Assembly: GCA_013215285.1 (NCBI GenBank)
Contig: JABSRD010000001.1
Span: 306,587 to 370,586 of the forward strand
DNA length: 64,000 nt
Direction of reading: 5' to 3'
DNA from: Candidatus Nitrosopumilus sp.
GTDB lineage: Archaea > Thermoproteota > Nitrososphaeria > Nitrososphaerales > Nitrosopumilaceae
Position numbers and translations under genes: made by a program. Below the pieces are notes generated by a model that saw only the letters and a list, made by a program, of their open reading frames with translations, was not told the DNA's origin and did not search any database. Below, piece after piece: positions 7,517 to 12,465 of the stretch; within the stretch, counting starts at the first letter, position 1, and every line of letters starts with the position of its first letter.

Positions 7517-9610
7517 ATGGAATTAAGTGAAGAGATAGAAGAACCACAGAGAGGCGGTATCTTACAATCTACTTCAAAACGTGTCAGAATGATCTTTTCT
7601 GTCATGGCAAGTCCAAATAGAATTGATATTCTGAGAATTCTAAATTCTAAAGGTCCTCTGACTTATTCTGAACTAAAATCTCTAGCAGGATTCAAATCAA
7701 AAAAAGAGAGTGGTAAATTTGCATATCATTTGAGAAAATTATTGAGACAATCACTTGTTGCACTAAATAAATCTGAAAGACGTTACACTATTACAAATCT
7801 TGGAAAATTAGTTTTAAGTCTAGCACGACAAATTGAAGAAAGATCAATTATTGAAAGTGGAAAAATGTATGTACGAACATCACATCAATCTATTGAGGAA
7901 TTTAATTCACATAAAATTATTCAATCACTAGTTCGTGAAGGAAGTCTTCCATTAGAATTAGCACAAAAAATTACTGAAGAAGTTGAAAACAGAATTTACA
8001 AATATCAGATTACCTATCTTACAGGTGCACTCATACGAGAAATGGTGAACTCTGTTCTTTTAGAACATGGTCATGAGGAATATCGAAATAAACTTGCACG
8101 CCTGGGTCTGCCTGTTTATGACGTTCAAGAAATGATTTCTAACCTAGATAATGTGGATAATGGTGCTGAGGGTCTTTTGTCTAATACTGGGCAACAAGTA
8201 TTTGCTGAGCATTTACTTACTAACGTATTACCAAAAGATGTAGCAGATTCTCATCTTTCTGGAGATTTACACATTACTAATCCTGGAGTTTGGTCTATGA
8301 TTCCTGATACAATATTTGTTAATGTTAAAGAATTGATTGAAGATGGAATTGACCTTGGTGGAAAATATTTAGATGTTTCAAGAATTCCTGCATCAAAACA
8401 ACTTGATGAAATTACAAATTCATTGTCTGTTATAATTTCTCTTCTCTCCAAAGAAGCTTCACAAGAAATTGTTCTTGATGGATTAGTTCAATTGTTTTCA
8501 AAACATTCAAAATCTCTTCCAGAGCTTGAACAAAAATTAACTAATGCATTTGCAACTGCATCTACAACTTCAAAATATAGTAAAACAAATACTATTGTCT
8601 CAATTAGATTACAATTAGGAACTGATACAAAAATTATTAATTCAATAATTAATGCATACAAAAATTATACAAAAATAACACCAATACCAAAGATTGGTTT
8701 GATTATAGATCAAGATAAAGGAAAACTTACTGATGTTTCAGGATCATTATCTGAAATAATTTCTTTTGGTGGAAAGGTAATGTTTGCAAAAGGACAAATG
8801 TCTAGTCATGGTATAACAAATGGATCTACAAAGAGTACAGGACCACTTTCAATAGTACTACAATCTGTTTCCATAAATCTTCCAAGATTAGCTTTTGAAT
8901 CAAATAAAGATGAAACTTACTTTAGAGCAAGACTTGCATTACTAATGAAACCTGCTCTTGTTTCAATGGCATTGAGAAAAAAAGATATCTCTGATCTTAC
9001 TAGAAGAGGATTAAACCCAATTCTTGCAAAGAATACTCAATACATGCAAAGAAGTTCTGTTACTCTTGTTGTAAATTTGGTGGGGCTTAAAGAAGCAGTC
9101 TTTAACATACTTGGATTCAAAGATAACAAAGACGGTCGTGCAATTCTTCATAAAGTAATTGAAACTGCAGTTGATGTTGGTGCCAAAAAAGGTAAAGAAT
9201 TAGGTGAGACTGTGGCTATTTGCATGACTGAAACTGAGGGTTCTACCCGTTTTGTACGACTAGATGGTGAAAAATATGGTAAAAACTCTGCACTAAATTC
9301 AATGGATGGTGACTCTTATTCTGAAGGAGTAGTGATTAATGCTTCTGAACTTTCTGGCTATACTGCTAAAAGTGAACACATCTCTGAGTGTAACAAACTC
9401 TCAAAATTGTTTAATGGTGGATTGCTTGTGACATTAGAAATTGACAAGCATGCAAATACTAATGAAATCAAAAAATCAATAGAGAAAACATCTACCTTGA
9501 TACATTCTTTCAAACTTGTTAGGCCTACTGCAATATGTGGTGAATGTGGTTTCAAAGATGAACCATTTGAAGACAAGTGTCCAAAGTGTAAGTCACCATA
9601 CATTGTCTGA
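7517..9610 (+). CDS. HTH-ATP-cone-NrdD-like fusion without catalytic residues; candidate RNR regulator
   Basis: 697 aa in four parts. Residues about 20-105: winged HTH of ArsR type (SPNRIDILRILNSKGPLTYSEL, then FAYHLRKLLRQSLV). About 115-205: ATP-cone (VRTSHQSIEEFNSHKII ... ALIREMVNSVLLEHG). About 215-620: homologous to anaerobic ribonucleotide reductase NrdD (SVSINLPRLAF, VVNLVGLKEAVFNILGF). End: zinc ribbon CGECGF..CPKCKSPYIV. The protein stops there, with no glycyl-radical RxxGY loop, and there is no cysteine at all before about residue 600, so thiyl-radical chemistry is impossible. Bacterial NrdR also joins DNA binding to an ATP-cone and controls RNR genes; nrdJ is the next gene. A nucleotide-sensing regulator is my inference. 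Confidence 0.75.
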   Translation: MELSEEIEEPQRGGILQSTSKRVRMIFSVMASPNRIDILRILNSKGPLTYSELKSLAGFKSKKESGKFAYHLRKLLRQSLVALNKSERRYTITNLGKLVLSLARQIEERSIIESGKMYVRTSHQSIEEFNSHKIIQSLVREGSLPLELAQKITEEVENRIYKYQITYLTGALIREMVNSVLLEHGHEEYRNKLARLGLPVYDVQEMISNLDNVDNGAEGLLSNTGQQVFAEHLLTNVLPKDVADSHLSGDLHITNPGVWSMIPDTIFVNVKELIEDGIDLGGKYLDVSRIPASKQLDEITNSLSVIISLLSKEASQEIVLDGLVQLFSKHSKSLPELEQKLTNAFATASTTSKYSKTNTIVSIRLQLGTDTKIINSIINAYKNYTKITPIPKIGLIIDQDKGKLTDVSGSLSEIISFGGKVMFAKGQMSSHGITNGSTKSTGPLSIVLQSVSINLPRLAFESNKDETYFRARLALLMKPALVSMALRKKDISDLTRRGLNPILAKNTQYMQRSSVTLVVNLVGLKEAVFNILGFKDNKDGRAILHKVIETAVDVGAKKGKELGETVAICMTETEGSTRFVRLDGEKYGKNSALNSMDGDSYSEGVVINASELSGYTAKSEHISECNKLSKLFNGGLLVTLEIDKHANTNEIKKSIEKTSTLIHSFKLVRPTAICGECGFKDEPFEDKCPKCKSPYIV

Positions 9611-9670
9611 AATTCGTAAATGAAAAACTAGTAACGATCATTTCACAAAACTTTTTGTTCTGATTCAGAT

Positions 9671-9689
9671 GTGGCGATCATCGTCGCAC
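9671..9689. promoter_or_regulatory. Imperfect palindrome upstream of nrdJ, possible operator
   Basis: GTGGCGATCATCGTCGCAC is an imperfect inverted repeat (GTG-CGA / TCG-CAC) in the spacer between the HTH-ATP-cone gene and nrdJ, about 85 bp before the nrdJ TATA-like box. Its GC content is higher than the surrounding spacer. A binding site for the neighbouring regulator is conceivable; nothing else supports it. Confidence 0.3.
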
Positions 9690-9772
9690 ACTTTGATGTT
9701 ATGCCTATATGAACTTCATAGTAGCGGTGTCAACATTATTGAACCGAATTTTACAACTTTTTTGCAGAATCA

Positions 9773-9807
9773 TTTATACCCCATCTTCTTCTTACTTTGT
9801 CGGGGAG
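9773..9807 (+). promoter_or_regulatory. Putative nrdJ promoter and ribosome binding site
   Basis: TTTATA at 9773-9778 is a plausible TATA box; transcription would start about 9800-9803. GGGGAG at 9802-9807 is a Shine-Dalgarno-like sequence 6 bp before the TTG at 9814. Together they favour 9814 over the upstream ATG at 9709 as the nrdJ start. Confidence 0.45.
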
Positions 9808-9813
9808 ATATTA

Positions 9814-12465
9814 TTGGACAATTCACAACTAGAAAATACTATAATTGATATTCGTAAGCGCAGTGGCGCAGTAACGGCTTTCGATAAAGATAAAATTTCA
9901 AATGCCATATTTGGGGCATTGGCTGCCACCTCTAAAGCCGATCGTGGTCTAGCCGATCAACTAGCAGGAAATGTTGTTAACAAACTAGTAGAACAAGGAT
10001 TTACAAGTTTTAGGGCACCTACTGTTGAAGACATTCAAGATATTGTAGAATCAACTTTAATCGATAGCGGCAATAGCGATATTGCAAAAGCATACATCGT
10101 TTACAGACATGAAAGAAGAAAATTAAGAGACCAAAAAATGAAGGTCTTAAATCTAAAGTCTCTTGATCCAGTTTCTAAAAAGTTTGATTTGAATTGTCTG
10201 AGAGTTTTAGCATCAAGATACCTTTTCAGAAATGGAAAAAATGAGATTATTGAATCTCCAACTCAAATGTTTGAACGAGTTGCAATTCTAGTAGGAATTG
10301 GTGATATTCTATATGACGCACAGATATTTGACAAATCAGGCAATATCACACAGGATATTGGTGAGGCACAATCTTATCTTGAAAAACTAGATGCATTTGA
10401 TTATAAATTCAAAGTAGGAGATTATTTCTTCAACAAATGGCATCTAAGATCTTTAATCAATCACTATGTGGCCCTTGCAAATCAAGGTCAAATGAAAATA
10501 AGTTTCAAAAGTCTTTTGACATTACTAGCAGCAAAGAAACTTGATAGTTATGCTGACAAAATAACTGAATACTTTGAGATGATGACTCAACAAAACTTCT
10601 TACCAAATTCACCTACAATGATGAATGCTGGTGGAAGATTGGGACAACTTTCTGCATGCTTTGTACTTGGCATGGATGATGGTATGGAACAAATCATGAA
10701 AACAACTTCTGATGCAGCATTAATTTTCAAATCAGGCGGAGGAGTTGGAATTAACTATTCCAGTCTTCGTGAAGAAGGTGACATTGTAGCATCAACTTCT
10801 GGTGTTGCATCTGGTCCAGTATCATTCATGAATATCATCAATACTGTAACTGAAGTTATCAAACAAGGAGGAAAAAGACGTGGTGCAAACATGGGAATCA
10901 TTGAGGCATGGCATCCTGATATTGAAAAATTCATTACAAACAAAACAGAAGCAGGTGTTTTAGAAAATTTTAACGTCAGTGTTGGAATTTGGGAAGACTT
11001 TTGGCATGCACTTGTTAATACTACTGATGGTAACTATGTCTTACGTAGTCCACGTGACAATAAACCAGTTAAAGAAATCAATGCACACCAACTAATTGAT
11101 TTGATTGCACTATCTGCATGGAAGAGTGCAGAACCTGGATTGATCTTCTTTGATCAAATTAACAAGTACAATGTATTTGCAAAAGCTAGACAAGCACCAC
11201 TAAAAGCAACAAACCCTTGTGGTGAACAAAGTCTTTATCCATACGAATCATGTAATCTAGGTTCTATCAATCTAGTGAATATTGTAAAGAGGCAAGCAGA
11301 TGGAACTTATGAATTTGATTGGCAAAGATATGAAGAAACAATTAGAAAAACAACAAGATTCTTGGATAATATTATTGATGTCAATACCTATCCAGTAAAA
11401 GAAATTACTGTAGCATCAAAAGAATCTAGAAGAATTGGATTAGGTGTAATGGGAGTAGCTGATCTCTTGTACAAACTAAGAATTCCATACAATTCTAAAG
11501 AAGGATATGAATTACAAGGCAAATTATCTGAAGCCCTAACATACTATTCAATGGAAGAAAGTGTTGCCCTTGCTAAATCTCGTGGTGAATTCCCACTTTG
11601 TTCAAAAACAGAATTTCCTGAAGGAAAGATTCCAATAGCAGGATATTATGAAAAATCAAAAGAATCGCATTCTTATGAATGGGGTGCACTAATTGAGAAA
11701 ATTAAAACATATGGAATTAGAAATGTTTTGACTACTACAGTAGCCCCAACTGGAACACTTGCTATGATTGCAGATTGTTCAAATGGAATGGAACCTGCAT
11801 TTGCTCTTGTATTTGAAAAGAGAGTTACTGTTGGACGATTCTTTTACACAAATAAAATAGTTGAAGAAGCTCTCAAAGAAAATGGTCTTTACAGTGATGA
11901 AATTATTGAAAAGATTGCAGATAACTATGGTTCATTGAAAGGACTTGCTGAAATCCCACAATGGATGCAGGATGTATTTGTAACTGCAATGGATATTCAC
12001 TGGGCTGATCATCTTATGGCTCAAAGCGTATGGCAAGACTGGATTGGAAATGCAATTTCAAAAACAATCAACATGCCATATGATGTTACAGTAGAAGATG
12101 TAAAATCTGCATATCTATTGGCACATGAATTGGGATTAAAAGGAATGACTGTTTATCGTGACGGTTCTAGACATACACAAGTTCTTCACATGACAAGTGA
12201 AAATGCAACTAAGACATTTGAAGTTACTCCAAGTGAGTATATTACAAAATATGTGCTAGCAAATATTACAAATCCATACATCAAAAAACAAGTAAACACC
12301 TCACTAGCACTAAAAGTCCATGACGAAGAAATTAAAATTGAATCTCCACAAATAGAACAAGTTTCAGAAGATCGTCTTTGTCCAACATGTAAAAACAATC
12401 TAATCTTTGTTGAGGGATGTAGTATCTGCATTGAATGTGGATACAGTGGTTGTACTTCTGGATAA
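9814..12465 (+). CDS. nrdJ: Class II (adenosylcobalamin-dependent) ribonucleotide reductase
   Basis: 883 aa from TTG 9814 (an in-frame ATG at 9709 would add 35 unlike residues). Order: ATP-cone (IIDIRKRSGAVTAFDKDKI) at about 1-95; RNR barrel with LPNSPTMMNAGGRLGQLSAC (redox Cys), the active-site loop NPCGEQSLYPYESCNLGSIN with N-C-E catalytic residues, TTTVAPTGTLAMIADC (second redox Cys); C-terminal zinc/Cys tail CPTCKNNL..CSICIECGYSG. Makes deoxyribonucleotides using the 5'-deoxyadenosyl radical of coenzyme B12, independent of oxygen. The cofactor assembly operon lies at 47.1-51.3 kb. The gene before it is the NrdD-like candidate regulator. Confidence 0.95.
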   Translation: MDNSQLENTIIDIRKRSGAVTAFDKDKISNAIFGALAATSKADRGLADQLAGNVVNKLVEQGFTSFRAPTVEDIQDIVESTLIDSGNSDIAKAYIVYRHERRKLRDQKMKVLNLKSLDPVSKKFDLNCLRVLASRYLFRNGKNEIIESPTQMFERVAILVGIGDILYDAQIFDKSGNITQDIGEAQSYLEKLDAFDYKFKVGDYFFNKWHLRSLINHYVALANQGQMKISFKSLLTLLAAKKLDSYADKITEYFEMMTQQNFLPNSPTMMNAGGRLGQLSACFVLGMDDGMEQIMKTTSDAALIFKSGGGVGINYSSLREEGDIVASTSGVASGPVSFMNIINTVTEVIKQGGKRRGANMGIIEAWHPDIEKFITNKTEAGVLENFNVSVGIWEDFWHALVNTTDGNYVLRSPRDNKPVKEINAHQLIDLIALSAWKSAEPGLIFFDQINKYNVFAKARQAPLKATNPCGEQSLYPYESCNLGSINLVNIVKRQADGTYEFDWQRYEETIRKTTRFLDNIIDVNTYPVKEITVASKESRRIGLGVMGVADLLYKLRIPYNSKEGYELQGKLSEALTYYSMEESVALAKSRGEFPLCSKTEFPEGKIPIAGYYEKSKESHSYEWGALIEKIKTYGIRNVLTTTVAPTGTLAMIADCSNGMEPAFALVFEKRVTVGRFFYTNKIVEEALKENGLYSDEIIEKIADNYGSLKGLAEIPQWMQDVFVTAMDIHWADHLMAQSVWQDWIGNAISKTINMPYDVTVEDVKSAYLLAHELGLKGMTVYRDGSRHTQVLHMTSENATKTFEVTPSEYITKYVLANITNPYIKKQVNTSLALKVHDEEIKIESPQIEQVSEDRLCPTCKNNLIFVEGCSICIECGYSGCTSG

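Follow-up and report, generated by a model that had tools for sequence, protein, structure and literature searches.

An NrdD-like protein without catalytic motifs, carrying a winged helix-turn-helix domain and an ATP-cone: a candidate regulator of ribonucleotide reductase genes in Thermoproteota

The locus and its two genes

The window, that is, the entire 64,000-nucleotide stretch of Nitrosopumilus DNA that was analysed, encompasses an unusual gene located directly before nrdJ. The features of this locus, in window coordinates, are as follows.

7517-9610, + strand: protein with a winged helix-turn-helix (HTH), an ATP-cone, an NrdD-like barrel and a zinc ribbon; 697 aa, ATG start, intact open reading frame
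7592-7831, + strand: winged HTH, residues about 26-105, with the almost invariant recognition-helix segment ESGKFAYHLRKL
7865-8083, + strand: ATP-cone, residues 117-189, archaeal VRTS variant
8162-9496, + strand: NrdD-like barrel, inferred to be catalytically dead, residues about 216-660 (NRDD, 2.4e-27)
8792-8815, + strand: inferred dead active-site segment GQMSSHGI, aligned to the CC(R/A) thiyl-radical loop of NrdD
9536-9589, + strand: C-terminal zinc ribbon C674xxC677...C688xxC691, followed by the last six residues of the chain
9635-9641, no strand: CGATCAT half-site, 40 bp upstream of box 1, aligned in the genus
9675-9683, no strand: box 1, the perfect palindrome CGATCATCG
9708-9720, no strand: box 2, the palindrome TATGAACTTCATA, in the nrdJ spacer
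9727-9745, no strand: GTGTCAACATTATTGAACC, the local spacer-5 version of GTCAA-N6-TTGAC; candidate operator, without binding data
9773-9779, + strand: TATA-box-like TTTATAC of the nrdJ promoter, seen in the sequence
9814-12465, + strand: nrdJ, adenosylcobalamin-dependent class II ribonucleotide reductase (RNR) with its own ATP-cone; TTG start inferred; proposed target

The boundaries of the first gene are exactly those given in the original prediction, which was made from the sequence alone, and the succession of winged HTH, ATP-cone and NrdD-like barrel proposed there is borne out by Pfam: the winged HTH is matched by DUF7347 (2.4e-10) and HTH_20 (8.6e-8) over residues 26-100, the cone by PF03477 (1.2e-7, residues 117-189), and residues 446-693 by NRDD. 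Among the NCBIfam models, the top match is NrdD (TIGR02487), with a score of 87 bits where the cut-off is 326. The only cysteines are residues 569, 625, 674, 677, 688 and 691, the last four of which make up the zinc ribbon that was correctly placed at the very end of the chain; the assertion that there is no cysteine before about residue 600 was inaccurate, the first one being residue 569.

Structure prediction, which had been proposed as a check of these assignments, yielded a class III RNR fold overall and an NrdR/ArsR-like N-terminal part. Specifically, the AlphaFold2 model of the full protein (34 homologues, mean pLDDT 83) matches class III RNRs along its full length, with 9d3x as the top PDB hit (E 4.9e-20); 9d3x and 9dca, the closest structures to the model, are those of Streptococcus thermophilus NrdD with dATP or ATP. 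When residues 16-205 were modelled separately (pLDDT 86), the fold search retrieved NrdR and the ArsR repressors CzrA and SmtB, with weak E values (0.002-0.04) and a probability of 1.00. A phmmer search of the PDB restricted to the cone region retrieved none of the RNR cones, whereas the structural search did find NrdR.

The adjacent gene product is readily identified as NrdJ (NrdJ_Z, TIGR02504, 717 bits with a cut-off of 400) and contains a strong ATP-cone of its own (Pfam, 8e-21). Translation of nrdJ probably starts at the TTG at 9814 rather than at the mechanically assigned ATG at 9709: the TTG is supported by the conserved DNSQ..E N-terminus and by the purine-rich GGGGAG just upstream, and the extension from the ATG overlaps conserved regulatory elements. 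The genome (1.66 Mb, 99% complete) encodes a single Ribonuc_red_lgC protein, NrdJ, and has no NRDD match besides the window protein, so that the original observation that nrdJ is the only RNR gene in the window holds for the whole genome. RNR has been reported to be highly abundant under H2O2 stress in Nitrosopumilus (PMC6593220), which makes regulation of nrdJ plausible.

A widespread family without the catalytic motifs of class III RNR

Alignment with genuine NrdDs indicates that the thiyl/CC segment of these enzymes (QCCR or MCCR) reads MSSH in the window protein and that the RPFC cysteine is gone, in line with the predicted loss of the cysteine-rich active-site region, whereas the zinc ribbon occupies the same place as NrdD's own. 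The glycyl-radical loop, likewise predicted to be absent, is missing, the chain stopping after the ribbon. Two findings that, according to the original prediction, would have refuted it did not materialize: no glycyl loop of the form SR(V/I)xGY could be read in the six frames of the 220 bases that follow the gene, and a genome-wide search for the activase NrdG produced nothing over the cut-off, the top match being QueE, encoded next to folE. Throughout the family, a catalytic motif (CC or glycyl) is present in 0 of 83 members, compared to both motifs in 8 of 8 genuine NrdDs from the clades of these members, which upholds the view that the window protein is not a working anaerobic RNR; the zinc ribbon is retained in 80 of the 83. 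In other classes, a degraded glycyl-loop region is still recognisable in family members. This motif comparison shows, at the level of the entire family, an apparent loss of class III RNR catalysis (RNR activity was not assayed). These proteins, whose only matches in the libraries are to RNR families, should be excluded from surveys of class III RNR.

Of 300 genomes from the class, 280 encode a family member, and the reading frame is open in nearly all of the listed loci. Pfam analysis of class members detected DUF7347 and the ATP-cone in 34 of 34 and HTH_20 in 33 of 34; six members from other classes combine the HTH, the ATP-cone and NRDD, with two of the cones just under the cut-off. When a profile was used, full-length proteins of around 750 aa that share this domain order turned up in many further families of the phylum, to which all our claims on the spread of the family are limited. 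In a phylogenetic tree of the cone and barrel, 46 family members are separated from eight NrdDs by a single branch with 100/100 support, a topology that is compatible with one origin of the family.

Conservation is distributed unevenly along the protein. With near-identical members of the genus left out, the HTH has a mean pairwise identity of 66% and the cone one of 60%, whereas the barrel and ribbon reach only 26-29% (27% for the barrel). The recognition helix is basic, and its segment ESGKFAYHLRKL is nearly invariant across the class. The loop of the cone reads VRTSHQ in place of the canonical VxKRDG, so ligand binding by the cone is not assured; nevertheless, the VRTS variant is also found in functional NrdDs that adjoin some family members (D_L215, D_L223 and D_L224) and is thus a feature of the archaeal lineage rather than a sign of decay.

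Several loci depart from the common pattern. In one genome from another genus of the same family (locus L068, genome G088), the gene is split by a stop codon into a 492-aa part with the HTH, cone and barrel and a 184-aa C-terminal part; a second genome of that genus (G132) also gives two matches, and the split may be shared. Genome G494 encodes, in addition to its family member (L227) and NrdD genes, a second NRDD-like frame of 759 aa (G494:C7:73140-74651), a possible paralogue. Two loci titled Phycisphaerales bacterium (L105) and Proteobacteria bacterium (L160) are 89-90% identical to those of Nitrosopumilus and are probably misbinned or mislabelled.

Linkage to exchangeable RNR genes

nrdJ lies directly downstream on the same strand in each of the 75 Nitrosopumilaceae loci that offer enough sequence. 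The neighbour is again nrdJ in nearly all other orders of the class with sufficiently long contigs, in tandem orientation except for one family in which the two genes are convergent. In families f16, f19 and f20, which branch deeply within the class, no RNR is adjacent, and in other classes an RNR directly adjoins the family gene in 7 of 19 loci (six true NrdDs and one NrdJ). An NrdJ or an NrdD accompanies the family protein in each of the 28 genomes checked.

The adjacent RNRs are themselves diverse. The NrdJs can be sorted into five groups plus a singleton, with 58-70% identity within and mostly 26-50% between groups, and include a 1050-aa type as well as types without a cone; the true NrdDs belong to two subtypes. 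Within the class, identities between family members mostly lie at 34-51% regardless of which RNR adjoins, and between two loci from different classes (L218 and L074), the RNRs are 64% identical compared to only 32% for the family proteins. Judging by these identities, the RNR gene is repeatedly exchanged next to a vertically evolving partner. Adjacency that persists while the RNRs are swapped is what would be expected of a regulator of the function as opposed to a subunit of one enzyme.

A further conserved flank is pyrB, which encodes aspartate carbamoyltransferase and is convergent over several classes (loci L214, L217, L229, L230, L231, L071, L079 and L080), sometimes with the RNR slot empty. 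One of the adjacent nrdJ genes (L076:4362-7811, - strand) encodes a protein of 1149 aa with an intein-like insertion (CLTKDTLVF...VSHN) in the barrel.

Upstream palindromes and the proposed regulatory role

The palindrome that was originally noted at 9671-9689 indeed contains the perfect CGATCATCG of box 1. Of the 78 Nitrosopumilaceae nrdJ spacers, 50 contain box 1 (CGATNATCG; 0.7 expected) and 41 contain box 2 (TATGAANTTCATA; 0.02 expected), the strongest two footprints in Nitrosopumilus; CGATCATCG and TATGAANTTCATA were not seen outside Nitrosopumilus and near genera. As a universal operator, CGATCATCG or TATGAANTTCATA was rejected, the GAANTTC core occurring at the chance level in other clades. 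Given that the HTH is near-invariant yet boxes 1 and 2 are clade-specific, these boxes may belong to another factor. An RNA element in the nrdJ spacer was also considered and discarded, with no noteworthy Rfam match.

When a palindromic model was built de novo for the RNR upstream regions and, independently, for those of the family genes, each from diverse genera, both sets gave GTCAA-N6-TTGAC-like sites, with scores of 91 against 62 +/- 3 for dinucleotide shuffles (RNR upstreams) and 106 against 71 +/- 3.5 (family-gene upstreams). Since the motif was discovered in the same sequence sets, only cross-trained tests count. In these, the tested locus was left out and the controls were other genes of the same loci with at least 80 intergenic bases upstream. 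The RNR-trained matrix scored above 8 in 7 of 28 family-gene upstreams but in none of the 148 intergenic controls (p 1.6e-6). Conversely, a matrix trained on family-gene upstreams and applied to RNR upstreams gave p 1.8e-4. Allowing at most one mismatch, the GTCAA-N6-TTGAC word occurs in 9 of 21 RNR upstreams, 4 of 28 family-gene upstreams and 1 of 103 controls, and the enrichment is limited to spacer 6. The motif is degenerate, being weak or missing in about half of the loci, and in other classes it is not significant (p 0.18). A regulon search of three Nitrosopumilus genomes with GTGTYAA-N5-TTRACAC and two mismatches produced 27 matches compared to 64 for the reversed control.

The conserved linkage across RNR swaps, together with the palindrome common to the two upstream regions, supports a regulatory role at the RNR genes, as initially suggested. 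We consider it probable that the window protein is an RNR-derived, nucleotide-responsive transcription factor for RNR, with an origin independent of that of NrdR but a corresponding function; its DNA binding, its ligand and the sign of the response are all inferred. The evidence behind this reading is comparative, with no binding or expression data.

The same linkage would be compatible with a protein-level regulator, that is, a dead NrdD-like chain that pairs with the working RNR (NrdJ or NrdD) or with itself and controls the activity of the enzyme in trans, the HTH serving mainly for dimerisation. The genes are adjacent and likely co-expressed, an inactive homologue is a natural partner for an oligomeric enzyme, and several of the adjacent NrdJs, judging from their sequences, have no ATP-cone of their own. 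However, NrdJ of the window does possess a strong cone, a conserved interface is hard to reconcile with partners from five NrdJ and two NrdD subtypes, conservation is lowest in the barrel and highest in the DNA-recognition helix, and the palindrome common to both promoters would be left unexplained; on balance, we regard this mode of action as quite unlikely. A transcription factor with another main target, such as pyrimidine synthesis or a wider regulon, with the RNR neighbour merely inherited synteny, fits the convergent pyrB, which remains in place even where no RNR adjoins, and the deep lineages without RNR adjacency. Inherited synteny alone is insufficient, however, to account for adjacency kept through RNR exchange, and it is the sites learned from RNR upstreams that recur at the protein's own promoter, so a main target elsewhere seems unlikely.

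The retained NrdD fold, along with the degraded but recognisable glycyl-loop region in other classes, could also point to an unconventional RNR that is still active or to an NrdD pseudogene undergoing decay. Activity is hard to reconcile with the lack of thiyl cysteines or a glycyl motif in the entire set of 83, with the absence of a detectable NrdG and with the presence of another RNR in all the genomes checked, and decay with the near-universal presence of an open frame in the class and the strong conservation of the HTH and cone; both possibilities are highly improbable.

Under the transcription factor reading, a class III RNR would have lost its chemistry and become a DNA-binding protein, the dimeric winged-HTH head of which would bind GTCAA-N6-TTGAC-type palindromes in front of both the RNR gene and the gene for the factor itself. 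ATP or dATP would be bound by the cone, and perhaps also by the allosteric pockets of the dead barrel, and this binding would alter assembly or DNA affinity such that RNR expression tracks the nucleotide pool; the job of NrdR in bacteria would thus be done in these archaea with different parts. Twelve of the 16 higher-scoring sites upstream of family genes with a placed start lie 9-55 bases before the start codon (some starts are uncertain), positions that, on sequence grounds, fit those of an autorepressor; repression of its own gene by dATP is a guess. A point against the proposed model is that none of the sites in the window covers the TATA-like box, all being located upstream of it. The more distant sites at nrdJ would also allow activation. 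A more elaborate scenario, in which the specificity or substrate pockets of the dead barrel also bind nucleotides, so that several (d)NTPs are read directly, and in which the protein originated once in the phylum, stayed at the RNR locus through class II/III exchanges and fills the place of NrdR, is possible, but we hold it only tentatively.

RNR supplies every DNA precursor, its output must match the nucleotide pool, and bacteria use NrdR for this purpose; to our knowledge, control of RNR genes in archaea is an open question. Ammonia-oxidising archaea are among the most abundant cells in the ocean. If the proposed role is correct, a phylum-wide regulator made from RNR would answer the question of RNR gene control for these organisms and would provide a remarkable example of a metabolic enzyme that has become a transcription factor. 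We found no prior description of an HTH-cone-NrdD regulator in the open-access literature searched.

Like NrdR, the window protein joins an ATP-cone to a DNA-binding domain and is tied to RNR genes whatever the RNR class, with genes or sites beside them. The cone is the sole homologous part: NrdR is a protein of about 150 aa with an N-terminal DNA-binding zinc ribbon, in contrast to the about 700 aa, winged HTH, dead NrdD barrel and C-terminal ribbon of the window protein. NrdR senses ATP/dATP via its cone and binds upstream of RNR genes at paired boxes that are separated by about three helical turns (PMC9110341); for the window protein, such sensing is only expected. With NrdD, the cones of which bind two ATP or two dATP molecules with changes in oligomeric state (PMC11226230), it shares the cone, the barrel fold and the four-cysteine ribbon, but it has gained the winged HTH and retains neither of the active-site cysteines nor the glycyl-radical loop, its genome lacks a detectable NrdG, and its score is well below the cut-off of the NrdD model. 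The N-terminal fold and weak Pfam matches to HTH_5/HTH_20 resemble those of ArsR/HTH_20 repressors such as CzrA and SmtB; unlike in these, no metal-sensing role is indicated, and the HTH is a head on a large nucleotide-enzyme body. On present evidence, the window protein has an NrdR-like role but is not NrdR, and is a descendant of NrdD but not an RNR.

The notion of an independent archaeal solution fits the distribution of NrdR, which is rare in archaea (PMC9110341). The NrdR model TIGR00244 has no match in the genome of the window; among 200 genomes from the phylum, only 13 have a hit above the cut-off, and these belong without exception to one family of another class. By coordinates, NrdR lies just upstream of a genuine NrdD in two cases (G461:C11:243520-246049 and G300:C8:13747-17210). 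These two genomes belong to family f23, of another class, and also retain the HTH-NrdD protein at a different place from the NrdR-NrdD pair, which amounts to two candidate RNR regulators per genome.
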